NCBI GenBank assembly: GCA_963930775.1
Contig: OZ005703.1
Span: 3,224,001-3,288,000, forward strand
Reading direction: 5' to 3'
Length of the DNA stretch: 64,000 bases
Source of the DNA: Cliona cf. orientalis
Lineage: Eukaryota; Porifera; Demospongiae; Clionaida; Clionaidae
Shown: piece by piece, positions 2,785 through 64,000 of the stretch
Layout: the number at the start of each line of letters is the position of its first letter
How positions within the stretch are numbered: the first letter of the stretch is position 1
The notes under the pieces: model-generated
The model's input: the letters and a program-made list of their open reading frames with translations, nothing else
The model's database searches: none
Told to the model about the DNA's origin: nothing
Made by a program: the position numbers and the translations under genes

Positions 2785-4736
2785 AATTTGTGTATAATAA
2801 TTTCTGTCGTAAAATATACAGAGGTCACATGAATAGCAAAAAGTGCTAACAAAAACATGAGACCCGACTTATAACTAATGAGAAAAATATTAACTAAATA
2901 ACTATAATAGGTTCGATTTGAAAACATAAACAGAGGGTGAAGAGGCAGTGCTGCAAGGCAGGGTGTTCCATTGTGCAATGGTCCTGGGGAAAAATGAATT
3001 ATGGAACTGAGAAGTTCTAGCCGCTATGTTTTGAAGCTGCAGAGCATGAGAAAACCTGTTGTTGTAATTAATGATCCGATATTGGAGAGGTGCTTCAGGA
3101 AAGACAGTCAGATCGTTGACTATTTTGAACAAGTGACTCAGCCTACATTGCTTACGCCTGTCAGAAAGAGCAGGGATTTGACTCTGTATATACAATTGAT
3201 TATGATCAGAGGACCAGTTCTTGAGACATACACGCAAGGCAAATCTCTGAACCTTCTCAAGAGCATCAACATCCCTAGCAAGATATGGGTCCCACACAAT
3301 GGAGCCGTACTCGAGGTGGGGGCGGATGAAAGACTTGTATAATGTAAGGAGGGTGGTAGAGTCAGCATGCTTGTAGAACTGACGATATAAGAGACCAACA
3401 AGCTTCCTAACTTTACTGCAAAGTTTAGCTACATGAGGAGACCAAGAGAGGTCACAATTGATTAGAATACCTAGGTACTTCACAGAAGAAACATGCGAGA
3501 GTGGAGTACCCTGAACTGAAAAGGACGGGGGAGAACTTGGGCTCCTCCTCCTGGAAACAAGCATAGAGCAACATTTAGCTGGTTGCAGAGAAAGTAAGGA
3601 ATTGTTAATCCATGATACTATGGCATTGACATCCCTCTGCAGTATGCTGAAGTCCACGTCAGAGTGGATGGGCCTGTACAAAGCTATATCGTCAGCAAAA
3701 AGAGAAATTGAACTACCAAAGGAGATCTGATGGGCTATGTCATTAATGAAGATTATGAACAGAAGCGGGCCGAGCACGGAGCCTTGCGGCACTCCAGAGA
3801 TTACTGGAAGAACAGGAGACTCTTCACCGCCTACGACAACTGACTGAGACCTACTCGAAAGATAGCTATGGATCCATTGGACAAGATATTGATTTATGCC
3901 GATCTCTTCAAGTCTTTGCAAGAGCAGGCTGTGGGACACACTGTCGAAGGCCTTCCTCAAGTCAAAGAAAATGACACACGTGTCATTACCTAATTCGAGT
4001 TGCTGGAGCCAGTCGTGGGTGACGGAAAGAAGTGCAGACGCAGTACACCTCCCTGGCAGAAAGCCCCACTGACGGACTGATAGAGGGTGGTGAATGCTAA
4101 GATATCGGAAGATTGACTGGTGGACATGGCGCTCGAGTAGTTTGCTGACAACAGACAAAATAGATATGGGACGGTAATTGGTAGGGTCAGCGGAGTCCCC
4201 AGACTTGGGAACTGGAACAATGCGAGCCAACTTCCATGAATTTGGGAAAGTACCAGTAGATAGTGATAGATTAAATATCCTGGTGAGACTAGGAACTATT
4301 GCATCGATTGTTCCTTTCAACATCTTAACGGAAATTCCGTCAGGACCGGTGGACTTTGTAGGATCAAGACCAAGGATTAAATCGTAGACTTCAGCCTCGT
4401 CACAAAGTAGCTCCACTGGAAAATTTGAAGGCTGCAAATTAGGAGGGAGATTTGGCAGCGGCGGCGAATTAGCATTAAAACATTTGTAGAAAAAGGAGTT
4501 CAGTAGGCTGGCCTTATCAACGTTGTCTGTGATTGCAGAACCATTTGAAACTAATGTGGGAATTGAGCAGTCTTGCTTGTTCAGCATCTTCATAGATTTC
4601 CAAAAAGCTTTAGAGGTTTGAAATTTGAGATCTCGAAAAAATTTAGTCTTGCTTAGACGCAACATAGCAACAACTTTGTTTCTCGCTGCTCGATACCTCT
4701 GGTAGGCAGATCCGGCACTGTTCGCTGTTCGTGATT
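2785..4736 (-). mobile_element. 5'-truncated non-LTR retrotransposon
   Basis: A minus-strand element whose coding part ends at 2902 and whose open frame reaches back to about 4733, where an in-frame stop and unrelated sequence mark a 5' truncation. About 115 bp of 3' tail separates the stop from the repeat array at 2782, with an attatacac-type repeat at the end. The endonuclease and ORF1 parts are missing. The family resembles the Jockey/CR1 side of non-LTR elements. Confidence 0.8.
2902..4665 (-). CDS. Reverse transcriptase of a non-LTR retrotransposon (partial)
   Basis: The frame of 587 codons carries the ordered reverse-transcriptase blocks: STGPDGIS, NYRPISIL, GFLPGRCT, FFDLRKAFDSV, GVPQGSVLGPLLF, the catalytic LFADDIAL (FADD box) and KYLGILI, then a C-terminal region ending in an RTIAQWNTLP-type motif typical of the end of ORF2 in Jockey/CR1-like elements. 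The frame continues upstream of the ATG for about 22 codons, so the true protein was longer and started 5' of the truncation. The endonuclease is absent. The RT is uninterrupted, suggesting a fairly recent insertion, but this copy cannot be autonomous. Confidence 0.88.
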   Translation of the reverse strand: MLRLSKTKFFRDLKFQTSKAFWKSMKMLNKQDCSIPTLVSNGSAITDNVDKASLLNSFFYKCFNANSPPLPNLPPNLQPSNFPVELLCDEAEVYDLILGLDPTKSTGPDGISVKMLKGTIDAIVPSLTRIFNLSLSTGTFPNSWKLARIVPVPKSGDSADPTNYRPISILSVVSKLLERHVHQSIFRYLSIHHPLSVRQWGFLPGRCTASALLSVTHDWLQQLELGNDTCVIFFDLRKAFDSVSHSLLLQRLEEIGINQYLVQWIHSYLSSRSQSVVVGGEESPVLPVISGVPQGSVLGPLLFIIFINDIAHQISFGSSISLFADDIALYRPIHSDVDFSILQRDVNAIVSWINNSLLSLQPAKCCSMLVSRRRSPSSPPSFSVQGTPLSHVSSVKYLGILINCDLSWSPHVAKLCSKVRKLVGLLYRQFYKHADSTTLLTLYKSFIRPHLEYGSIVWDPYLARDVDALEKVQRFALRVCLKNWSSDHNQLYIQSQIPALSDRRKQCRLSHLFKIVNDLTVFPEAPLQYRIINYNNRFSHALQLQNIAARTSQFHNSFFPRTIAQWNTLPCSTASSPSVYVFKSNLL

Positions 4737-11218: not shown

Positions 11219-12326
11219 TTATGCATAGCTATTATCAAAATGTGCTAGTTGCTGCTGGAGGCTCTCAAATGTGGGTCGCTTTGCAGGCTCAACTCGCCAG
11301 CAATTGAGCATGATGTCATAGAGCTTGTCTGGACATCCCATAGGTTGGAACATACAGTAGCCTTGTCGTATTTGCTGCTCCGCCTCAGCATCAGTCATAC
11401 CAGGATAGGGTGGTTTACCATAAGTGATAATTTCATAAAGAACAATCCCAAATGACCAAACATCTGACTTGATGCTGAACTTGTTATGTAAGGTAGCCTC
11501 TGGTGCTGCCCATTTGATAGCAATTTTTTCCCCTTCTTGACCCTCATAGACATCTTGATGCATTACTCGAGCTAGTTTAAAGACGGCTAGTTTGCATATT
11601 GGGCCTGCTCCAACCAGGACATTACTGGCTTGTAAATCCCTGTGAACAACATTCTTTTTCTCAAGGTAGGCCATTCCTGCTGCCACTTGTGAGGCCATGT
11701 CCATCAACTGATTCAATGACTTCCCTCCACAATGCAAGTGTTCTAGCAAATTCCCATGTTCCATGAACTCAGTGATAATGAGTACAGGCTCTTCCTTGGA
11801 ACAAAGACCGTAAAGTTGAACAAGTTTTGGGTGTTGTAATTTCATCATCAGATTTGCTGGTTGCAAAAATTCATCTACAGTCATTTTTTGCTTTGGTTTG
11901 AGTATCTTAACTGCAACTGGTGTAGTGTTATTCCATACACCCTCCCACACTTCAGTAAATTCACCAGATGTTAGCTTCTTAACAAATCTTACATCACTTT
12001 TATCAATTTGCCATTCATCTCCTGAAACATCTGTAGGATTGACACAGGGCTTCTTGAGATTGACACAAAGTCCATCAGCTTGTTGTTGATAATAAATTAC
12101 AAGGTCTTGAAGAGTCTTGAATCTGGAACGTGGAATGATAAAGAACTCTCCATTTTCTAACTGACTAATTTTGTAGTGCGCAAAGTTATCCCTATCTCGA
12201 ACAGAAAGTGCATAACCACTAGTAGTATTTTCACTTTTTCGAACAAGATATGATCCGTAACTATTGAATGGGAGCTTGAGTTGTTTCTCAGCATCTTCAC
12301 GTTTGATTATTTGACTAAAGAACCAC
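11219..12326 (-). CDS. Exon 6: SH2 domain and Src-like pseudokinase
   Basis: The exon runs from WFFSQIIKREDAEKQL through an SH2 with GSYLVRKSE (FLVR arginine kept) and ADGLCVNL, into a Src-like kinase fold. Kept: VAVK lysine, HRDLQASN with its Asp and Asn, KWAAPEA and SDVWSFGIVLYE. Lost: the DFG motif reads VFK, the alphaC glutamate position in FLQEAQ reads FLQPAN, and the glycine loop reads TSGEFTEV instead of GxGxxG. The C-tail stops at NSYA without a Src-type regulatory tail. Catalysis is therefore unlikely; a scaffold, decoy or allosteric role is more plausible. The exon is continuous from the acceptor TATAG at 12331-12327 to TAA at 11219. Confidence 0.9.
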
Positions 12327-15300
12327 CTATAAGGGAGAGAGGGGGTGGAGAGGAGAGAGGGATATCAATATTCAAATCAAGCAATATATATACCCACTCA
12401 GGGCAGCCCAACTTACTTTTCATCATGCAAACCACTCCCATACTCAGTCACATAGTTGCTGGGGACAAAGCCCTCTTGTCCGCCATCCTTCTTGCGTGCC
12501 CACCACCAGTCATCATCTTTATCATCGATAATGTACATCAAATCACCTTTCATAAAGCTTAAGTCTTCAACAACTCTAGCAGAATAATCATACAATCCAA
12601 TATAGGTTTGAGATTTTTCTGTTTTGGGTCGTGGGATAGGAGTTGCAGCTGTTGGCTAGGATAATTATTCTGAAATAATATTAAGTAAAAATAGTATACA
12701 GTAACTACACCCACCTTGTGCTTAGATGATAGCATGGGTACAATGGACACATTATGTGACTCCAGTACTTTATGATCGTGTACTTGACCTAGTTTTTAAG
12801 ATTTTATGATAATACTGTATTATTATTAGCAATACTCACATTTTGGAAGATTGTTAGCAGCAGCTGGATTGATCAATAAGTATTCATCACATGGAGTGAC
12901 ACATCTTGAGAGATTGAGTGATGGTAGGGGTGTTGGTTGTACATTTGGATATGTCTCTGGTTGGGGTATGGGTTCATCATAATCACTAGAATCATCTTCT
13001 TCACTTTCATATTCACACACAAGGCTTCGGACGATTTTTGCACAATTATGAAAGTCAGCTTGTTCAAAGACATTCATCAATCTCTGGTAGGTAGCATCAG
13101 AACCAAGCTTTCGCTTCCATAGATACAAAGCTTCTCTCCTGTGAAGAATTAATTTTATGAAACTCATTGTACAAAATGGACCAGATGAACAATGTCATTG
13201 CTTGAATATCTTACGATTGTAGCTTTAGATTTCTTGGGTGCTTTGTGTGGATACTTGCAACATCAGCTGATGTGAGTTTGAGTTCATCAGAAATCCGACC
13301 TTCCCACTCAGTCATTGAATCAGCAATTTGACCAAGGTGCTTAAGAACTCCATGACCATCACCATCAATCACTTTATCCAATTGTGCTTTTCCTATTAAA
13401 AAATGAAGTAAGCTTCTACAATCATGTATGCTGTATAAGCAGACAATATTACCTGGTTTTCGCTTCTTGTGGAGGTTCCAAATTTCGCAACCCTTTGGTA
13501 GATTTCCACGACGTCGTCTGTTTGCAGCCTTACATACCACCTTAAATGGATTTTTTCCATCCCATTCTACTTCAGCTGGATGCTTATGAGCTTGACATGT
13601 AGATAGTGTACAGTAAAAGCCAAAAAAGTAGCTGCACTCCATGCACTGACTAGTGATGGTGCTCATGGCCTTTTTGATTTGCATAGACACCATTTCACAC
13701 GTTTTCTTTATTAGCTCATCGTCTTCTTCAGATACTCCTTCTGTTGAATCTGCTTCAGAGTAATAGCTGATTTCCAAGTGAGTAGGTAGAATTCTCAGAG
13801 TAATATTTCCATGTGCTTGGATAGCAAAGGAAGCTTCATTTTTGAATATCATATCTGGAATAATATTCCAACATTGTTTTGACCTCATTTCATTCGTCAT
13901 GAGGTACTTGATCAGGGCCCCTGGAATTCCACGAGGGCAGAAACCACTCCTGAATCCAACCAGCAATGAAGGCCATAAATATGCATGAGCTGATTTAGAA
14001 TCAGATTTGGGTGCATGGCAAAGTGCTGATGGGAAGAAGTACTTATCACCATCTCTGTCTTTGAATAAGGCAGCTATTCTGAGGTAGTTTAATAAATTAG
14101 TCAGCCATATAAATGGTAGTTGTGAATCAGAGCCTTTTTCATCCTTATCACTAATATTTTGCATGACTGTCATGGGTATGAAGCCCCTCTGACAAAAATC
14201 TTCTTTTTTCTTAACACCAACATTTTCAACTGTAAACGTCTTGACTATGAGATCTGTGATCTTGTCAAATAGGATTTGAGGGTCAATCACCACAAGTGTA
14301 TTCAGGTCATTTACATCGAAATATCGTACAAGTCCAAGCCTTGAGTGAATGAATGATAGCGCTTGATTCAACTCTTTACGATCAGATATCCCACATTCCC
14401 GGGCAATGCTAAAACACTTATCAAAGGTCAAGATCCGATCGGATTTGTGTTTTGCTCTGAGAATTAGGCTCAATATAAGCCATGATGAAGGACACTCAAT
14501 TGTAAACTCGTCTCTTTCAACAGTTGTCTGTACAGCTGATCGTATTTTCTGAAATTCGTCATCATCTTCTGAAAGATTGTTGACTACAAATATTAACTGT
14601 TTAGGATGCTCAGCAAACTGAAATGCATCTTGATCAAATAGATCTGTTTGTCTCACATGGCTCTGAAGCATTTCATCATTCCTTTGGATGATCTCTTTTG
14701 CCTTATTTGTTGGTAGGCAGTCTTTATGTGTACCAACAAAGAAAACTTTGGGTTTTATTATTATTGCCTCAGAATCTTTCTGCTGTCCACTTGTAAAGTG
14801 AGAAGCACTGATGGTTGCAAGTGTTTGGAGTAGTTCCTGCAACAAAGTTCCTGGTGATTTGTATGTCTCCACTCGACCATCTAGATACTCGTAACAGACA
14901 TCATAAGGCTCATTAAGATCATAATGAAGAGGAAATGTAACAAAAAAGATTGATGGCCCACAAACAAGGAGAGGAAGATGTTCCTGAAATTCAATCTGTC
15001 CCCCTGTGTTGGTGAGGTATAGGGACCATGATGATTCAAGGTGCTCTCGTAGAGCATCCATGCCTCGTAGCTTCACGGCCTGTTTAAAAATATCCACAGG
15101 CTCAACATCTGGTGTATACACAATTGCACTCTTTTCTTCTTCTTGAATTTTATAACCCACAGGATCATGATCAGATTTTTGTGCTTTCACAATCTTATCT
15201 TTTGTCGTACTATATTCAGGATCACCAAGGAATTTGGAAGGAATAGATGATTTAGCACTAGTTATTATGGGAATTTCTGTTTGCTCCTTAATGATGTATT

Positions 15301-17827
15301 TTGTTACAATCGGTTTTGATATAGTGGTAGTTGCAGAGTGATGCCTTGCTGTGGTCATGATCAGCTCAAGTGCCTCTTCATCATACTGCAGCTTTTTCCA
15401 CTCTAAATTACTAACAGCGGTGGCAACTGTGCACAGCTTTTTCACTTCAACTTTAACTATGCTTTCCAATACTCCAGTACTAGGTGAAAAGGTATCGGAC
15501 TTGGGCGGTCCATTTCCCATCAAACGACTCATCAAGGTGTTTTTACCAGAGCGCCCAGGACCAACAATCACTCCATGAGCAATAGTATGATTTATTATTC
15601 CTTTCTTTTTTATTGACTCTTCCATAACACATACAAGTTCATCATGAACCTCAGACATGTACTCATCATTTAAACACAAATTAAAGTTTCTTCCAAGGCT
15701 AAGGAGTTGTGAAATCACTTTGCTTAAATCTGGATTTCCAGGTTCTCCCAAATTATTTTCAGTGAGATCAAGTCGTCGGAGAAGTTTACATTTAGATGAG
15801 AGTACATTAGTGAAATTTGCCAAAGAACTTGTAGTTACTTCATCATTTAACGATCCCTTCAGGCCTAAATTTTGCAGGCTTTCAAATGTGCCATAATACT
15901 CAAGATGCTGCTGCAGAACTTGTAAGGAAGAAATTGATATATGATTAAATGATAGATCAAAATGAGTCAGTGTTGGAGAAGTGGACTGTGTTAATGCAGA
16001 CAGTATGGCTTCGATATCCAAGGTTGTCCCAATGTCACAGTTACGGAGGATAAGAACCTTTAAGGATTTAAGAGCAGCAGTATTTTTGTTAAAGAAATCA
16101 ACTGCTAGTGAATTACTGAGCCTGTTACCACTCAGATTAAGACCTTTGATCTGAACAATGCTAGATTTTTCACACAGAATATTTGCTAGGTGATTTATGT
16201 GTTCGGGTCTCAGATTGCAGTCTTGAAAGTTGATTTCCACTTTACTCTCTTGTGTTACATTTTGAAGCACATACACCATGGAATTGAAGTCATACACATC
16301 ACGTGCACGACCAAACCTTAATACTCCAGTACCCATGATGCTGATAGCTTCTATTACCTTCTGATTGACTACATCATGTTTTGCTTCATATGACAAATGG
16401 CAAAGGTCCATGTAGTACTTCTGTTTGGTAGTGCAATAAGCTGCTAATAAAATCTTCAAAACTTGATCAACAATATCAGGATTCAAGTTGGCTACCTGAC
16501 GTGCATAGCTACTGACAAAAAAGTGCCAGAATGTTACTGCCATTTTATTTTTGCGTTCTTCATTAGCCACCAATTCATGCATGAATTTAAGCTGTGCTTC
16601 TTGTGGCTGCTTTGCAAGGTGCAAAGCAGCAAGATACTCTTCAGAACGAGGATGAACGAAAGAGAAGGATAGAATGTCTTCAGTTTCTGCTATTGGCTTA
16701 GTTAAACCAAAATATGAGATTTCCTTTAAATTTGATGAAGTAAATGCTGCACCTGACAGAGGAAAAATATTATTGTGACCCTTCTCAATGTTCCTGAAAG
16801 CTAGTTCACATACTTGCCACCATGACTGCTGTAGCTCCTCAGGAAGATCATGATGGTTAGAAAATTGCAAGCTATTTTCGTGAGGATGCATTATGCTAGC
16901 TGAAGCAAGTGTCCAAATCAACTTTGAATACAACTTTGTCATGGTTTCTGGTAGGGGTTCAGCATTGCCAGTGTGACAAATTACAGCAAGATTGAGAGGA
17001 ATACTACACGCATTTGCAACTAATGGGTTATCATTCAGCTGTGCTGTGAGGTAGCGGATTCTCCTTAAGTCACCGGAAAACTCAGACTGGACTACGGATT
17101 CAATGGCTCTTCTATCAAATCCAGTCAAAGTAATGAAACGATCATTTGCTGACTGCATAACGTTTAATATTTGAACTTGGCGGCAGCCTGGTCTGGAGGT
17201 AATAAGAACTGTAGTGGATGGAGTGGGTATAATGTCGCTGCTAAAAAGAAAAGAGTGTAGGAATGATGCTGCTTGGCACTGGGAGTCATGAAGCTCTTCC
17301 CACCCATCAGCAATAAGTAGAATATTATTGTAATGACTCTTTTTCTCAGTTAAGTATTTAGCCACTTTGGAGCTAGTATCATCTTTGAAATCAGCATACA
17401 GCACATTGAGCAGCTCTGAAAGGGAACCAGCTGAGGCTACATTCCTAGAACTGAGAGGCAGCAAAAGCACAAGTTGAAATTCCTGAAATAGCTTTCCACT
17501 AGCCCAGTCCTCCACAATTGACATACATAACATCGTTTTTCCCACAGCCGCTTCACCTTGGATTAGTATCACTTTTCGAGGAGCCGTACTATTTGGATTT
17601 AATGTTACTTCACCGTATATTGGGTCAAATAGGCGATTGTATGGTATACGAACCTGCCTGACCTCTCCTGAGATGCCTGATTCCTTTTCTAATACCGACT
17701 CCAACAATTCCAATTCATGTACATTAACGTTCTTTAAGTGACATGGATACTGTTTTGTGTGGTAAGAACTTACATTGCGATATCTTTCTTTGAATCTGGC
17801 CAAACAACTTGAAATTTCATCATCCAT
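11219..17827 (-). CDS. NACHT-LRR-Roc-COR-Death-SH3-SH2-Src-like pseudokinase protein (six exons)
   Basis: The exon chain is 17827-13453, 13392-13215, 13138-12840, 12788-12715, 12655-12417 and 12326-11219, all joined by GT-AG introns of 60, 76, 51, 59 and 90 bp with matching phases and no stop, giving about 2,090 codons. Domains in order: NACHT (Walker A GEAAVGKT about 91-98, Walker B LLIADGWEEL about 170-179), LRRs (about 540-740), Roc-like GTPase (P-loop about 755-763, NTGGQ about 940, THKD about 1030), COR (about 1060-1330), a Cys/His patch, a Death domain split by an intron (about 1460-1550), an acidic tyrosine/proline-rich linker, SH3 (about 1660-1711), SH2 (about 1722-1815) and a kinase fold (about 1840-2085). 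Inferred role: cytosolic innate-immune-type sensor with Src-like docking. The kinase looks dead. The start ATG at 17827 is the first good one; the open frame reaches 17893, so an upstream exon is possible. The alternative is two adjacent genes, but no promoter or Met-Gly start precedes the SH3 exon. Confidence 0.75.
12417..12655 (-). CDS. Exon 5: SH3 domain (with short exon 4 at 12715-12788)
   Basis: Exon 4 (12788-12715) adds 24 residues ending LSSKHK. Exon 5 starts after the acceptor CCTAG at 12656 with a proline-rich run (PIPRPKT), then a full SH3 fold: GLYDYSA (ALYDY motif), EDLSFMKGD, DDWWWARK and GFVPSNYV. All the usual ligand-binding residues are visible. The domain is closest in feel to Src-family SH3 domains. 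Choosing another nearby AG as acceptor puts the SH3 out of frame, so 12655 is strongly preferred. The donor is AAGTAAGT at 12418-12411. Confidence 0.8.
12840..13138 (-). CDS. Exon 3: second half of the Death domain plus tyrosine/proline-rich linker
   Basis: The exon begins after TTCTTCACAG and completes a codon to give SREALYLWKRKLGSDATY, the classic Death-domain helix 5-6 pattern. It then enters an acidic linker with SDYDEPIP, ETYPNV, PTPLPSL and DEYLLINP. YDEP and YPNV look like SH2 ligand motifs and PTPLP like an SH3 ligand, which could allow intramolecular docking to the SH3/SH2 domains encoded just downstream. That is inference. The donor TGTGAGT lies at 12840-12834. Confidence 0.72.
13215..13392 (-). 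CDS. Exon 2: first half of the Death domain
   Basis: It encodes GKAQLDKVIDG through HPRNLKLQ, with the Death-domain-like helices around LKHLGQIADSMTEWEGRISDE (shown here only as a landmark). The preceding 60-bp intron (13393-13452, GTAATA...AATAG) is a multiple of three and has no stop, so a naive open frame reads straight through it and adds 20 false residues. The exon ends at 13215 with TC before GTAAGA. Confidence 0.75.
13453..17827 (-). CDS. Exon 1: NACHT, LRR and Roc-COR part of the fusion gene
   Basis: This single 4.4-kb exon encodes about 1,458 residues. After a short lead with PYNRLFDP comes the NACHT NTPase, with Walker A GEAAVGKT, Walker B and a sensor-like TTVLITSRPG. The helical region contains FSFVHPRSEEYLAALHLA, typical of NLR winged-helix ends. 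At least four LRR motifs follow (GLNLSGNRL, VLILRNCDI, HFDLSFNHI, RLDLTENNL). The second NTPase has P-loop GPGRSGKN, a G3-like NTGGQIEF where Roc proteins usually have Asp, and a G4-like VGTHKD, followed by a COR-like region (LVVIDPQILFDKITDL). The combination matches death-domain ROCO/NLR proteins known from sponges. Nucleotide binding is likely for both modules but hydrolysis is unknown. Confidence 0.88.
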
Positions 17828-34099: not shown

Positions 34100-35945
34100 T
34101 ATTATTATTAATTATTAATTTTAATGACAGTAGAGGCCAGGAGGCCCAATAGTCAGCATAGTACAAGCATTATAAAAAGAGATAATGGCAGTTAATGAGA
34201 GTTAGTGAGAGTGTGCTCTTTTCTCAAAAGCTACTGAAATGAATTTCCTGAGCAAGTAGATTAAGTGTTTGTCGTTACTACGTGACATAAATCTCCATTT
34301 ATCAATATCTGTGAGGTAGGGGAAGCTTTTGTTTATTTGTTTACTGTAATCAAAGAATTCTTGCCTTTCCTGCGTGTATAGACTGCAACTGAACAAAAAA
34401 TGGACTTCATCTTCGATTGCTTGCTCTTCTGAACAAAACCAACAGGTTCTTTCCTGGACAGGTAGAGGAGCTGGAAGATTATATCGGCCGGTCTCTATCC
34501 GCAGTGCGTGTGCGCTAATTCTTAGTCTGGTATGTGGGACTCTCAAGTACGGGGGGAGGGTCAGGTACATTTCCCGATGGAACTCGTTTTTGATCAGCCT
34601 ATACGACCGAAGTTTCCCAGTTGAGTCCCTGAGCTCTCCTTGCCAGCACTGTATGTACTGATCAATGAGGCGTTGCTCTAATTGCGCTGTGAATTCTGTT
34701 GGGACCACACCAGAGGGACGGTTCCATACTTGTGAGAACCCAGAATTGTTGAGGGTATTTTGGATGAAGCTTACCCATTCATGGGACTCGGCTTTTGCAA
34801 GTGCATAAGCATCTTTCACCAACTCAGGAGCATCCCAGTCTGTGGTTACTCTGAGCCAATACTTAATCATTGAAATTTTTTGCTTGATCATTAAAGGGGT
34901 TCTTCCTACTTCACCATAGCATGCTAAATTGGTAGCTGATCTGGGAACTCCCAGGGCAAACTTACAGAAGCGTTTGTGCAAAATTTCGAGCTCTTCAGCA
35001 GGGTAACAGCCCCACACTACGTTACCATATTCCAGAACAGGTCTCACTAGTGCATCAAATAAGTAACAGAGCAATGATGGCTCTGGGAACGCTAGTTTCG
35101 ATATTGCTCGGAAGAGTGAGAAGAGAGCTTTACTTGCTTGATTAGCTAGTGTGGAAATCGCTGGCTTGAAGGAACCATTACTGGAGAGGACGATTCCGAG
35201 ATACTTATAGCTGGTGGCATATTCAAGCTTCATACCATCCAGAGTGAGTGGGACTTGGTGGACATGTTGCTTTCTATTGAAAATCACAACTTTAGTTTTG
35301 TCTACATTGATATTCAATTTCCATGATTTGCAGAATTCGGTCAGCCTGTCAATCGACTCTTGAAGACCCTTGTTGGAGTCAGCAAGTAGAACTACGTCGT
35401 CTGCGAATAACAAGAGCTGCACTTTACGGTTAGCAAGAGTTATATTTCCTGCCACATTCGATGAGAGGTGGGATTCTAAGTCATTGATAAACAAGCTAAA
35501 TAAAAGAGGACTAAGGTTACAACCTTGTCTTACACCCTTTAAACACGGGAAAGAGGAGGAGGTGTTGTTGTTTATGGTGACTCTTGAAGTGGCATTTGCA
35601 TACATTGATTTCAGTAGCTATATTTAGAATTTTAGTGCTCACGCCCATGGAGGCAAGTTTTTCCCACAGCAATTTGTGATTTACTGAGTCGAAAGCCTTG
35701 GCAAAGTCGATAAAGCATGTGAATAACGGCTTTTTTCTCTTCTTGAAGGATTGGATTGCTGTTGCAATGACAAAAACTGCATCTGTTGTCTGCCTTCCTT
35801 GTCTAAATCCAAATTGTGATTCACAAAGTTTGCCATTAGCTTCGGCCCAGTCTAGTAGCCTGTTCCTGAGAATTGTAGTGAATACTTTTCCCATTACTGG
35901 AAGCAGTGTAATTCCCCTGTAATTGCTAGGGCATTTCCTGTCACC
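34100..35945 (-). mobile_element. Second non-LTR retrotransposon, 5'-truncated and frameshifted
   Basis: Minus-strand element with the end of an ORF2, truncated at its 5' end near 35945 where unrelated repeat sequence begins. Its reverse transcriptase differs clearly from the one at 2.9-4.7 kb, so the two come from separate families. The AT-rich 3' tail runs to about 34100. Confidence 0.8.
34202..35894 (-). pseudogene. Reverse transcriptase and C-terminal zinc knuckle, one frameshift
   Basis: The upstream frame (35894-35517) has FGFRQGRQT and CFIDFAKAFDSVNH. The downstream frame (35605-34202) has GVRQGCNLSPLLFSLFIND, the catalytic LLFADDVVLLAD and YKYLGIVLS, and a C-terminal CWFC ... HFLFSC knuckle common in several non-LTR ORF2 proteins. 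The two frames meet near 35610-35620 through what looks like a one-base indel. Also missing are the endonuclease and the start of the RT. Inactive copy. Confidence 0.85.
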
Positions 35946-58261: not shown

Positions 58262-59266
58262 TTAGATATAGAAGCCAAGAGCATCTATGACTGTTCCTGA
58301 ACGACCATAGAATCCATTAACCACCCCGTCATAGGTGGAAGTCGTATTGCTCCAGGGTGCATCTTGCCCCCATCCATATGGACCATATTCATTTGCCACA
58401 CCTGTAGATACCCACGTGAAAAATTTCAGAAAATCTACAAACTTGCCAGAATGCCCCACAACAATGAGTGAGATGCGCTCATCTTCAATAAAATCAATGT
58501 GAGTGAGTTGTACTTCACTAGTTCCATTGATTGACTCACGAACTGTACCATGCGCCATGGATACCTCTGATCCATTTGGAAGTAAATAGGTTGTGTTGAT
58601 ACCGTTAATATACTTTCCATGGCAGATAGTCATATGGATCATCCTTAGTGGACCAAGAATTGGTAGGTTATCATCAAAGTGTCGCCTTCCACCTCCTCCA
58701 GTGAGGGGAGTCTTCTTATAATAAGGTTGTACAATTGAGTTGTCATATTCAAATCCAATTCCATTTAAAAAGTCTCCACTTTCTCCAAAAAAACCGATCA
58801 CTACACCAGCAAAGTTGAATAAGAACCGATATTTGATGCTCTGTTCTCCAATAGGTCCATATTTGTGGATCTTCCCAGAAGAATCTTTGGTGAAAAAATT
58901 TAGCTGGGTCAAGAAACCGTTTGGAGGACCAAACTTTGAATATCCCTCAACACGAACAATCACCTCATTCTCACCAAATTTCACGTGGTGAGTAGCATTG
59001 CCACCAGTTCCCCCATGCCAGGCTCCTCTCACTACCTGACCATCTTGAAGAAAGTATGTCACTCGCAAGCCATCAATGATTTCTCCATAGCATACTGTAA
59101 GGGATCGAACACTAGCCACTGGAGGAACTATAGCGTATGTACCATCATCAAAGGGTTTTCCACCACTGGGGGTGAACAAAGGAAAGAGAAGAGAGCGCTG
59201 TATGTCAGATGCAATAGGCCTCAAAACTGTTAGACAACACAATACCAATGCAATCACAAACTCCAT
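58262..59266 (-). CDS. Secreted protein with two jacalin-like lectin domains
   Basis: Single-exon frame of 334 residues with a signal peptide (about 1-20, VIALVLCCLTVL). Domain 1 (about 34-172) begins SGGKPFDDG and ends with GFFGESGDFLNGIGF. Domain 2 (about 189-334) begins GGGGRRHFDD and ends GFYGRSGTVIDALGFYI at the protein end. Both have the jacalin pattern of a glycine-rich first strand and a closing GxSGxxL(D/N)xxGF loop. The sugar-contact Asp is kept in domain 2 but is Asn in domain 1, so the two sites may differ. NATHH, NGTS and NTTS are possible N-glycosylation sites. Likely a secreted carbohydrate-binding protein. Confidence 0.85.
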   Translation of the reverse strand: MEFVIALVLCCLTVLRPIASDIQRSLLFPLFTPSGGKPFDDGTYAIVPPVASVRSLTVCYGEIIDGLRVTYFLQDGQVVRGAWHGGTGGNATHHVKFGENEVIVRVEGYSKFGPPNGFLTQLNFFTKDSSGKIHKYGPIGEQSIKYRFLFNFAGVVIGFFGESGDFLNGIGFEYDNSIVQPYYKKTPLTGGGGRRHFDDNLPILGPLRMIHMTICHGKYINGINTTYLLPNGSEVSMAHGTVRESINGTSEVQLTHIDFIEDERISLIVVGHSGKFVDFLKFFTWVSTGVANEYGPYGWGQDAPWSNTTSTYDGVVNGFYGRSGTVIDALGFYI

Positions 59267-59896
59267 AGTTCACTTGCTTCATACACAATATCGTCACTTG
59301 AGAACAATTATTTTCCCTTAAATGGTTTGTACCATAAGCGGTTATAATAATATCATAACAAGAATTGCATATTATAATTACATCACGACTATGGTGGACA
59401 GCCATAGCTATTGCATCTAACTATGTATGTATTCTTAGCAGAATTCCATTCTTCAAGGGAGAGCAAAATTAATTAATTAAGTCCTTGGGGGTGGGAAGTG
59501 ACCCTTCCCCCAGAGTGTGAAACTGAAAATGATTTTATGGATTATAATAATAATTATTATATTAAAGATGCTTCGAACATCCACAGCGATGGCTTTCTTG
59601 TTGGCCAGTGCAAGTACTATTAAAACGTGACTCCATAGCCAGTATCTTCCTCTACAGCTGCGACTCAGCATTCGCCCACTTATGGCAATTAACCTTCAAC
59701 CTCACTGGACCATAGTACACACACATAGTACTTGTGTAGTAGCAGTACAGTCCTACTAGTGTGCCCTGAAGTAGTTTAATAATATCAGACGTTGTATTAT
59801 AAATACAAGGTTTGATAAGTGATTTATAAACCTCATATTATGGAGAAATCTGATTGGTCAGAATTTAAAACCATGGTACACAATACACAAGTTAAA
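59267..59896. other. Upstream region of the lectin gene; no other gene
   Basis: The 5' flank of the minus-strand lectin gene. A minus frame at 59477-59671 starts with a basic then hydrophobic stretch but ends in poly-isoleucine from an ATT run and is not called. Confidence 0.4.
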
Positions 59897-61183: not shown

Positions 61184-62152
61184 TCAAATAGTACTCTGTT
61201 CTTCAGCTTGAGTGTCATTTGATGGCTGTGCTTTCTTTTGTACTCGCTTGGACTTTCCACTCCATGATTTGTCTGGAAGTTCGGGGTAGCACAATCGAAC
61301 TCGATTTAATGATACAAAAATTGTGTGATCATCCGGCTTATCAACGAGACGAACTTCTGCATTGGTTGGGGTGAGATCAACAATGCAATATGGTCCATAG
61401 AATGGCCTAGCCAGCTTCCATGTTGTACCTTTCTTCTCACTCGGCATAAACACCATAACTCGATCACCAATTTGATATTGTGGCTGTTTGGAGTGTTTAT
61501 CATATGTCTCTTTTTGTTTGATTTGAGCTTGCTTGATGCTGGTCTTTGCTAAACTCCATGCTTCTGACAGGTGGGTGGTCAATGCAGATTTGTAATCTTC
61601 AGCATCTACTGCATAGTTTGGTGAGTCATTTTGGAGCTCTTCAGTCGGCAAGCGGGGATCTCTTCCATAGAGTAAGTAAAATGGCGACTCTCTCACGGAT
61701 TCTTGAACTGTTGCCCTATATGCAAATAGCAGAAATGGTAGGTGAGAATCCCAGTTGGAATTCTTCTCCGCTGACTTAGCAAGCATGTTTGTTAGAGTGC
61801 TGTTGAATTTTTCTACCAATCCATCAGTTTGAGGATGGTACCCCGAGGTGTTTACTTTCTTGATCTTCAATATCTGGCACACTTCGTGAATGAGATTAGA
61901 TAGAAAGTTTGCACCACGATCAGAGAGTAGTTCTTGGGGTGCCCCATGTCTGCAAAATATCTCCTCCACCAGTAGTCCTGCAATAGTTTCAGCACTTTGG
62001 TCCGGTACCGCAAATGCTTCTGCCCACTTGGTGAGATAGTCCATGAACACTACTACATACCGGTTTCCGGCTTCAGTTAAGGGTAGCTGTAGAACATCTA
62101 CACCAAGACGATGAAATGGACCTCCAACTGGAATTGGTTGCAGTGGTGGTCA
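61184..62152 (-). pseudogene. Integrase core and C-terminal part of the Gypsy polyprotein
   Basis: In the same frame as 62150-64000 but separated from it by a single TGA (62150-62152). The core contains FMDYLTKWAEAF, LLSDRGANF, TSGYHPQTDGLVEKFN (catalytic Asp and Glu in the D,D35E arrangement, with the first Asp just upstream in the VDVLQ segment) and a C-terminal SH3-like region (YQIGDRVMVF, FYGPYCIVD). The protein ends at 61184 just before the purine tract and LTR. Confidence 0.85.
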
Positions 62153-64000
62153 TCCTGCTCTACCTGTGCCTTTTCTTGTTGCACAATTGAGGCATGATCT
62201 GCTGTGTGTTCTCACATCTTTCCGCATTCCTGGCCACCAGTACGACTTTCTCAGTGTATCGTACATCTTTTTCTCTGCAAAATGTCCGGAGAACTTTCCG
62301 CCATGACTTTCATTGAATAGCTTTTCCCTCAATGCTGAAGGAACCACTTGTCTCCAACATCCTGGGTTTACAGGATTCTCGTGATGCAGAACATCATCGA
62401 TGAGATCGTACTGACTTTGCTCCAACACTATTCGTTTGGCCAGCTTTGGATCATCAGGAAGCTCTCCTTCTTCTAGAAATATGATCATAGTAGACAGCTG
62501 TGGGTCTTGTCTTTGCAGTAGACCAATATTGCCGTGTTTCTCTGAATTGTCTTCCTCTTCATCAGTGGTATTTGGTGTATCGTTTGGACTCGCTGAATCA
62601 GTATCAGCTGAAATGCTTTGTGAATCTTCAGGTATTGGGTTTCTAGATAGAGCATCAGCATTAACATTACTCTTTCCTGATCTGTGCTCAATCTGGAGAT
62701 TCATTTCTTGTATTATCATTGCCCATCTGGCCAACTTTGCTGAAGGATTTGGGGTATTGAGTAGTGAAGTGCAAGCAGAATGGTCCGTGTATACGGTGCA
62801 CTTGTGCCCTAGTATATAGGCTCTAAATTGCTTCACGGCCCATACAACTGCCAGTGTTTCCAACTCTGTAATAGCATAATTGGTTTCATGAAGCTGCAAG
62901 CATCGGGATGCATAAGCGATTGGGTGCACATGACCATCTTCTTGCTTTTGTCCCAGTACAGCTCCGAGGCCAGCAATACTAGCATCTGTTTCCAGAATAA
63001 ATTCGGAATTTATTCCAAATTGTGGATATGAGAGCACTGGAGCAGTGGTGAGTAACTGTTTCAACTTGTCAAAGGCTTCTTTGCACTTTGTTGTCCACTG
63101 AAATTGGGCATTTTTCTTTGTGAGAGCATGTAACGGATTGGCAATTGTGGCAAATCCAGGGATAAATCTTCGATAATACGAAGCAAGACCGAGAAATTGT
63201 CTCACTTTAGTCACATCAGTGGGTTCTGGGAAATCTTTCACTCTGGATATTTTTGCAGGGTCAGGTTGGATACCTTGCTGTGAGATAATGTGTCCTAGAA
63301 ATGGAACACTCTCTCGCAGAAATGAACACTTTACTGGTTTAAGTGAGATAATGTGTCCTAGAAATGGAACACTCTCTCGCAGAAATGAACACTTTACTGG
63401 TTTAAGTGTGAGGCCTGACTGTCGTAGTCTATCAAAGACTTGCTGTAAGTGGGTAAGATGCTCTTCCCATGACTTGGAGAACACCAGGATGTCATCTATG
63501 TAGACATAGCACGACTTCCATTCCAAACCAGCCAAAACAGCTTGCATTAATCTTTGGAATGTAGCAGGTGAGTTACAAAGGCCAAAAGGCATTCGAAGGA
63601 ACTCGAATAAACCGCAATGTGTAGTAAAGGCCGACTTATCTCTGGTTGCAGGATCCATTTCGATCTGCCAGTATCCAGATGCCAGATCAAGGGTTGAGAA
63701 ATACTTGGCCTTGTCCAGTGTATCGAGTATGTCATCCACTCTAGGGAGTGGGTACACATCCTTCTTGGTTACTGCATTCACCTTTCTGTAATCTACACAG
63801 AAACGTAGGTTTCCATCCTTTTTGGGTACTAGTACCACTGGGCTTGCCCACGCACTTGATGATGGTTGGATGACCTCTTGTTTGAGCATGTTACTCACAA
63901 GTTGGGCCACTTTCTCTCTGTGTATAAATGGTGTACGTCTCGGACATTGTTTAATGGGTGGATGGTCACCTGTATCAATGGAGTGCTTAACAATAGTGGT
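62150..64000 (-). CDS. Gypsy reverse transcriptase, RNase H and integrase zinc finger
   Basis: The open frame is continuous to the window edge, so the start of the polyprotein is outside. Visible: RT blocks VVLVPKKDGNLRFCVDYRKVN, FSTLDLASGYWQI, AFTTHCGLFEFLRMPFGL and the catalytic YVYIDDILVFS; RNase H with LETDASIAGLGAVL, TELETLAVVWAVK and YTDHSACTSLL; then an HHCC integrase finger (ESHGGKFSGH ... CLNCATRKG). A 63-bp in-frame tandem duplication (about 63286-63411) repeats SFLRESVPFLGHIIS once within the RT thumb/connection region, an abnormal insertion that probably disturbs folding. Confidence 0.9.
   Translation of the reverse strand, partial: TTIVKHSIDTGDHPPIKQCPRRTPFIHREKVAQLVSNMLKQEVIQPSSSAWASPVVLVPKKDGNLRFCVDYRKVNAVTKKDVYPLPRVDDILDTLDKAKYFSTLDLASGYWQIEMDPATRDKSAFTTHCGLFEFLRMPFGLCNSPATFQRLMQAVLAGLEWKSCYVYIDDILVFSKSWEEHLTHLQQVFDRLRQSGLTLKPVKCSFLRESVPFLGHIISLKPVKCSFLRESVPFLGHIISQQGIQPDPAKISRVKDFPEPTDVTKVRQFLGLASYYRRFIPGFATIANPLHALTKKNAQFQWTTKCKEAFDKLKQLLTTAPVLSYPQFGINSEFILETDASIAGLGAVLGQKQEDGHVHPIAYASRCLQLHETNYAITELETLAVVWAVKQFRAYILGHKCTVYTDHSACTSLLNTPNPSAKLARWAMIIQEMNLQIEHRSGKSNVNADALSRNPIPEDSQSISADTDSASPNDTPNTTDEEEDNSEKHGNIGLLQRQDPQLSTMIIFLEEGELPDDPKLAKRIVLEQSQYDLIDDVLHHENPVNPGCWRQVVPSALREKLFNESHGGKFSGHFAEKKMYDTLRKSYWWPGMRKDVRTHSRSCLNCATRKGTGRAG

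Follow-up and report, generated by a model that had tools for sequence, protein, structure and literature searches.

We analyzed a gene that runs from position 17827 to 11219 on the minus strand of the window, which is the whole 64,000-nucleotide (nt) stretch of Cliona cf. orientalis DNA (C15:3224001-3288000, in a genome of 216.8 Mb on 149 contigs). Judged from its sequence, this gene very probably is a real fusion of an NLR-type front half to a Src-like cassette, and we hold with high confidence that it is a single gene whose kinase domain is non-catalytic. Joined in phase, its six exons give 2,090 codons and a terminal stop codon, with no internal stop. The five introns (60, 76, 51, 59, and 90 nt; phases 1, 2, 1, 0, and 2) were all of the GT-AG type, which bears out the six in-phase exons and the 51-90 nt introns described in an earlier sequence-only reading of this DNA. 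A splice-aware alignment reproduced the model, which serves as a consistency check only, since the query was the model itself. The encoded domains follow the order NACHT, leucine-rich repeats (LRR), Roc-like region, COR-A, Death, a small exon, SH3, SH2, and kinase fold. Pfam searches on the spliced protein, a check proposed in that reading, recovered NACHT, COR-A, Death, SH3, SH2, and kinase; together with an exon structure that recurs in paralogues, they support one composite gene in this order. The exons and domains are as follows.

13453..17827, minus strand: exon 1, encoding the N-terminus, NACHT, LRR, Roc, and COR (open frame, splice-aware alignment, Pfam).
17075..17572, minus strand: NACHT, residues 86-251, with Walker A motif GEAAVGKT (Pfam 7e-20; NLR structures match).
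15668..16210 (approximate limits), minus strand: LRR of the ribonuclease-inhibitor type (Pfam and structure-profile matches).
14528..15580 (approximate limits), minus strand: Roc-like GTPase region with GPGRSGKN, TNTGGQ, and GTHKD (motifs conserved in alignment A2).
14195..14491, minus strand: COR-A, residues 1113-1211 (Pfam 1e-8, 35.6 bits; cut-off 35.3).
13215..13392, minus strand: exon 2, first part of the Death domain (open frame, splice-aware alignment).
12840..13138, minus strand: exon 3, remainder of the Death domain and a linker with conserved Tyr (spliced Death 1.7e-10).
12715..12788, minus strand: exon 4, 74 nt, between phase-1 and phase-0 introns (length recurs in paralogues).
12417..12655, minus strand: exon 5, SH3 domain (Pfam SH3_1 8e-17).
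11219..12326, minus strand: exon 6, SH2, kinase fold, and stop codon (open frame, Pfam).
12089..12325, minus strand: SH2, phosphotyrosine-binding Arg kept (Pfam 4e-20; Arg in 14 of 14 paralogue models).
11246..11989, minus strand: Src-type pseudokinase domain (Pfam tyrosine kinase 2.5e-86; motifs; model and PDB match).
11858..11860, minus strand: alphaC Glu position, here Pro, in FLQP (motif alignment).
11576..11584, minus strand: DFG position, here Val-Phe-Lys (motif alignment).

The tail shows the SH3-SH2-kinase order of Src-family kinases. A predicted model of the SH2-kinase part (mean predicted local distance difference test score, pLDDT, of 73; predicted template-modelling score, pTM, of 0.57) had c-Src as its best full-extent match at 48% identity, and single kinase-domain matches to solved kinases reached a template-modelling score (TM-score) of 0.84. 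The motifs of the fused kinases were then read by alignment to the stand-alone kinase L006 from this genome. The window copy kept the Lys and the HRD Asp and lost the glycine loop, alphaC Glu, and DFG Asp. Among the fused copies, alphaC Glu was absent in all 12 readable ones, DFG Asp in all 13 readable ones, and HRD Asp in 4 of 13, with the Lys retained in 11 of 12 readable copies. The stand-alone Src-like kinases L001, L002, L006, L008, and L024 kept Lys, Glu, HRD Asp, and DFG Asp in all five that were read, with Ala replacing the third loop glycine in L008 and L024. Because glycine loop, Glu, and DFG Asp are lost, the fused kinase looks dead and catalysis is not expected from it, and an active composite kinase was ruled out by the same losses. 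Catalytic residues were thus lost while the predicted model (TM-score up to 0.84) retained the fold, as in a pseudokinase. A direct link to tyrosine-phosphorylation signalling through the kinase, as the sequence-only reading worded it, is therefore not supported. Its suggestion of Src-type docking survives in part: an active kinase is not expected, but docking via SH2 and SH3 is possible because their ligand residues are largely kept. The SH2 Arg was kept in 14 of 14 models, and among 14 SH3 domains, the first Tyr, second Tyr, and Pro were each kept in 13, the Trp in 12, and the last Tyr in 9. Linker Tyr 1571 and 1581 were kept in 13 of 13 readable copies. The C-terminal tail of the window protein, where Src-family kinases carry a regulatory Tyr, is short and ends in NSYA. 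The dead kinase and the membership of a multi-gene family are both points missing from the sequence-only reading.

The NLR assignment of the front half, made from sequence profiles, is firm because its best solved relatives were NLR structures, namely chains 5irl and 5irm (title 'Uncharacterized protein'; we take them to be NOD2), NLRP3, and NLRP1, together with ribonuclease inhibitor for the LRR. The front profile matched NLRP1 as one stretch from NACHT through LRR. The LRR_6 match of the window copy was weak (Pfam 4e-4, 20.6 bits, under the cut-off of 23.4), and LRR_6 was present in 20 of 24 alignment members. No N-terminal CARD, PYD, or Death domain was found ahead of NACHT in the Pfam scan; the Death domain sits after COR. 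The Roc-COR identification of the sequence-only reading held for COR-A, recognized by Pfam and present in all 24 aligned members, but for Roc it is only putative, as the Pfam Roc model gave no match at the Roc position of the window copy and matched 1 of the 24 members. The putative Roc region is thus called from its conserved motifs and the adjoining COR-A. Its P-loop (window 15539-15562) reads GPGRSGKN, with GKN instead of GK[ST]. Because this Asn replaces Ser/Thr nearly invariantly in the 24 aligned members, GTP handling by the Roc region may be unusual.

The gene belongs to a family, whose counts are lower bounds because the genome searches scored best candidates only. Searches with the Death exon (at least 62% identity), the COR region (at least 77%), and the 74-nt exon all led to a tandem array at C7:1.88-2.15 Mb, to single copies at C7:4.55 Mb and C19:2.33 Mb, and to the window copy. 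The 74-nt exon was matched at 17 genomic places, 15 of which had a same-strand SH2 0.4 to 6.0 kb downstream, 13 of these pairs lying in the C7 array; the two without SH2 were a partial duplicate at C7:1.890 Mb and the C19 copy. From the SH2 side, 20 of 103 matches were read with their neighbourhoods (13 picked from the C7 cluster), and 15 of the 20, the window copy included, carried the fused arrangement in complete or partial form, the others being L023, L024, L025, L027, and L028. Paralogues were modelled with the splice-aware aligner using the window protein as query (n = 14). Phases 1, 2, 1, 0, and 2 recurred in eight of them (L010, L011, L013, L014, L016, L019, L021, and L022). L009 had the same five introns plus a 1,388-nt skip across a partial duplicate, L018 had the five plus additional ones, no phase-0 intron was placed in L020, and the models of L012, L015, and L017 were partial or irregular. 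An exon exactly 74 nt long, flanked by phase-1 and phase-0 introns, occurred in 12 of the 14 (L015 and L020 were not measurable), in a measurement that covered exons of 70-80 nt and with a query that itself contains this exon.

Fusion is favoured because the exons are in phase, the gaps are intron-sized, the phases recur in eight paralogues, and 15 of 17 small exons are paired with SH2. Chance agreement of phase is unlikely, since the exon structure recurs in paralogues. It is quite improbable that an NLR-ROCO-Death gene and a neighbouring Src-like gene were co-duplicated and never or rarely spliced together. Such an arrangement would fit the in-frame Met of exon 4, at which an internal start is possible, and the polyadenylation-like signals that 4 of 13 genes (L011, L013, L016, and L021) have in the stretch separating Death from SH3. 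However, exon 3 and the SH3 exon were just 184-288 nt apart in 12 of 13 genes (606 in one), and the intron phases agreed across eight paralogues. The 184-nt gap of the window gene contained neither AATAAA nor ATTAAA. Moreover, exon 4 is in frame with both neighbours, its single Met is followed by Leu and replaced by Leu in L018, and the SH3 exon has no Met ahead of the domain; the sequence-only reading was thus right that no Met-Gly start precedes the SH3. An alternative in-phase splice that omits exon 4 is also possible in the window gene. A search of the viral collection gave no match, and none of 23 pattern hits in the prokaryote collection was confirmed.

A retrocopy origin was ruled out, as introns are kept; the match to L011 spans 7 kb at 90%, including introns and ~350 nt of 5' flank. 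The tail appears to have been acquired as genomic DNA, because the stand-alone kinase L008 also has a phase-2 intron at the corresponding position between SH3 and SH2, and in L002 and L006 the corresponding residue follows an AG acceptor.

In the protein database, the matches listed comprised 120 of 3,432 kinase hits and 120 of 296 front-half open reading frame (ORF) hits. Six kinase hits (double, partial, or odd) were excluded from classing: P0121, P0147, and P0177 were without Glu and DFG Asp, P0128 and P0158 without DFG Asp only, and P0157 kept both. Among the 114 classed of the matches listed, at least 51 lacked both Glu and DFG Asp and at least 61 kept both; in P0167 and P0224, also among the matches listed, DFG Asp alone was missing. 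A kinase tree of 103 rows, using 33 of the active hits, was built by a quick search with no bootstrap, and its support was given by the Shimodaira-Hasegawa-like approximate likelihood-ratio test (SH-aLRT). The 13 fused kinases of this genome and the 51 database hits sharing their losses formed one clade (SH-aLRT 99), sister to active L006 plus P0153 (SH-aLRT 94); some of the 51 duplicate this genome's own genes. The C8 kinase L030 fell elsewhere on a long branch. Named relatives among the matches listed were few; they include an Amphimedon kinase, and also a fly and a shark. Six database contigs (552971, 299780, 236074, 177598, 642799, and 617477 nt) carried a front-half ORF as well as a dead-kinase ORF among the matches listed, a linkage that holds if equal size means the same contig, since contigs were equated by size only; no contig was common to a front-half ORF and an intact kinase among the same matches. 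Linkage of front and dead kinase beyond this genome is thus possible, and linkage is not fusion here, as most database hits are unspliced ORFs. Because front identities of database ORFs to own copies were about 69-94%, the data suggest that these ORFs come from other species or haplotypes.

We then compared the tempo of front and tail by pairwise dN/dS (nonsynonymous to synonymous rate ratio; NG86 method, nine genes, 36 pairs that are not independent). Median values in the front were 0.20 for COR, 0.27 for Roc, 0.29 for LRR, 0.31 for Death, and 0.32 for NACHT; the linker had 0.57. Those in the tail, by which it evolves two to three times faster than the front, were 0.61 for SH3, 0.63 for SH2, and 0.60 for the kinase. 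Single pairs reached 1.24 in SH3 and 1.10 in SH2, the SH2 pair L009-L010 (2.42) being excluded because its dS was too small. For the active stand-alone pair L002-L006, the sole unsaturated one, dN was 0.11 and dS 1.19 over SH2-kinase. Codons 1840-1864, from the former glycine loop to the Lys, had a pooled pN/pS (the corresponding ratio of proportions) of 1.27 (12 genes, 26 codon windows). Front and kinase distances were uncorrelated over ten genes (Mantel r -0.02 and 0.06), and those of Death-exon 4, SH3-SH2, and kinase correlated at 0.44-0.48 (15 to 35 of 2,000 permutations reached such values). In the window gene, the centre of the kinase was closest to L009/L010, and most other stretches were closest to L011 or L013. 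These sequence distances show that tail and front reassort between copies, and the Death-to-kinase part tends to be inherited as a unit.

NACHT and Roc-COR act as nucleotide switches and form oligomers, Death domains bring in death adaptors, and Src-family kinases are engaged by bacterial effectors. By analogy with plant NLRs that carry integrated decoys, we propose that the gene encodes an NLR-type receptor of ~2,090 residues in which the dead Src cassette would act as bait and docking surface and not as enzyme. The cassette would imitate Src-family kinases and bind proteins that target them, such as microbial effectors, or phosphotyrosine or polyproline ligands. Ligand binding would release NACHT/Roc-driven oligomerisation, and the oligomerised Death domains would recruit an output, e.g. 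caspases or death adaptors. Bait is favoured because the tail evolves faster than the LRR, and for the receptor with its integrated-decoy mechanism as a whole we consider the chances about even. The gene looks as if a signalling enzyme had become part of a sensor. Should the proposal be right, the family would connect NLR sensing with docking to phosphotyrosine in a lineage that branched early among animals; catalytic loss, a fast tail, and reassortment make the decoy idea directly testable.

Several observations weigh against this proposal or the fusion beneath it. When the Death-to-SH2 stretch was compared with the protein database, none of 1,489 candidates was a spliced protein of this kind at E<=0.001, and L022 had no kinase in the stretch read. 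The pN/pS ratio exceeded 1 in only 1 of the 26 codon windows, and relaxed constraint on a dead domain would likewise yield a dN/dS near 0.6. Reassortment is not specific to the tail, because NACHT against LRR-Roc-COR gave a Mantel r of 0.20, so that the front itself is a mosaic. Finally, of the ten copies that comprise both front and kinase (the window copy and nine array copies, L009, L010, L011, L013, L014, L016, L019, L020, and L021), only the window copy, L009, and L014 were free of frameshifts or stops; one frameshift each occurred in L010, L011, L013, L019, and L021, one frameshift and one stop in L016, and five frameshifts and one stop in L020. These are either assembly errors or pseudogenes. 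In the protein database, a second assembly carried, on a 1024271-nt contig, ORFs that are 99.7-100% identical to several array members, and the frameshifts of L011 and L010 may be genuine because P0004 and P0034 match them only over the parts preceding the frameshifts.

The disruption of 7 of these 10 copies, the tail dN/dS of ~0.6, and the single pairs above 1 are what one would expect of a decaying passenger, that is, an ancient fusion whose kinase has outlived its use and is drifting in an array rich in pseudogenes. We nevertheless regard decay as improbable: the kinase dN/dS was below 1 in all 36 pairs (0.40-0.86), the same few catalytic positions were lost while the fold was retained, and the dead-kinase clade includes 51 database hits, though some are own-genome copies. 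Alternatively, the LRR may do the sensing and the tail may be an output adaptor, in which SH2, SH3, and linker Tyr gather active tyrosine kinases and their substrates around the dead kinase as scaffold. The invariant SH2 Arg and linker Tyr would suit such a role, the same genome encodes Src-like kinases whose motifs are intact, and other fronts precede domains with intact motifs, e.g. the kinase of L034 (HRDLTARN) and the PTP (protein tyrosine phosphatase) domain of L037 (HCSAGVGRTG). However, it is the tail and not the LRR that evolves faster, which is unexpected for a conserved output module, and an active kinase would be the better output; we consider an adaptor rather unlikely.

The bait proposal was also set against known systems, as described in the accessible parts of the cited papers. 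Animal and sponge NLRs share NACHT with ribonuclease-inhibitor-type LRR, in large species-specific expansions, and COR is named in one figure legend (PMC12909245). The window gene differs in carrying Death after Roc-COR, not N-terminally, and in the added SH3-SH2-pseudokinase; neither 'SH2' nor 'SH3' occurs in the main text of that paper, which also counts NACHT-LRR proteins without an N-terminal domain (NLRX) as bona fide NLRs. Roc-COR (AP-GTPase) proteins share the LRR-Roc-COR core and vary in the C-terminal domain behind it, which is of at least 24 kinds in bacteria and a kinase in metazoan DAP kinase (PMC8195603), whereas the window gene adds NACHT in front and Death plus a Src-type pseudokinase behind. 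In brown-algal ROCO genes, exon shuffling of the LRR has been described (PMC11378527). Sponge TRADD-N proteins, expanded in Amphimedon, likewise combine a Death-like front with C-termini that vary and may carry kinase or SH2 domains, but no NACHT-LRR-Roc-COR front, which the window gene has, is reported for them in the accessible text of PMC8195603. Src-family kinases share the domain order and the SH3-SH2 intron, and c-Src was 48% identical to the window copy when structures were matched; unlike these kinases, the window gene has no Met-Gly start, has lost catalytic residues, and places the cassette behind an NLR. A sponge-specific Src-Aque1 family (PMC8662651) may overlap the dead-kinase clade. 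Plant NLRs often bear copies of pathogen targets as bait and, like the window gene, include receptors with an integrated kinase or pseudokinase domain (PMC9528084). The plant core is NB-ARC, whereas that of the window gene is NACHT with Roc-COR-Death, so the window gene would work like these receptors and not be a member of them. No description of the full domain order was found in the open literature (subscription papers may fall outside), in line with the sequence-only reading, which knew of no such family.

Modules downstream of Death were also surveyed in 14 other front copies outside the array subfamily, with 49-58% COR identity.

L034 (C19:5.608 Mb): front, exon-4-like motif, intron-sized gap, kinase with HRDLTARN (Pfam), then EPIYDDI-type repeats.
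L040 (C19:5.623 Mb): front, exon-4-like motif, intron-sized gap, kinase with HRDLTARN (by likeness to L034).
L032: FN3 and Death after the front.
L036: Death after the front.
L033: Gln-rich stretch and exon-4-like motif, sharing one frame.
L037 (C17:1780258-1785500): front, then two PTP domains, HCSAGVGRTG and HCSGGNGRTG.
L041 (C8:1173926-1177900): NLR-ROCO-Death front, then a tyrosine kinase with IGDFGLAR.
L043 (C8:834000-837500): front, acidic stretch, Arf-type GTPase (Pfam 1e-21).
L042: PH domain after the front.
L030 (C8:1196500-1202500): front, then SH3-SH2-degenerate kinase with Lys, HRD, and DFG motifs lost, outside the main clade.
L029, and L038 with L039 (C4:7.45-7.52 Mb): two fronts, each then a same-strand SHP-like SH2-SH2-PTP gene.

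L031 and L035 had no recognised domain in the stretch read downstream of Death. L032, L033, and L034 look fused to their modules because no Met precedes the module and the gaps are intron-sized or the frame is one; the remaining surveyed modules may be neighbours of their fronts. The C4 SHP-like genes were not counted as fusions: L038 has a Met right ahead of the first SH2, and its SHP-like gene is probably a neighbour. We put forward, tentatively and with some doubt, that animals too build integrated-decoy NLRs, in which modules would be joined via introns to a NACHT-LRR-Roc-COR-Death chassis, the dead Src bait would be the largest branch, and tandem recombination would reshuffle the baits.

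Elsewhere in the genome, C17:2316562-2325288 on the minus strand (G000) held a 2,925-codon open frame that matched SH2 once and kinase-like domains ten times in tandem; database protein P0039 (2,874 aa) looks similar. Pfam placed five of ten other ORFs of the window in no family. On the minus strand of the window, retroelement ORFs with reverse transcriptase and integrase lie at 2905-4734, 34205-35617, and 61187-64000, and an open frame with a Jacalin-like lectin domain lies at 58265-59269.

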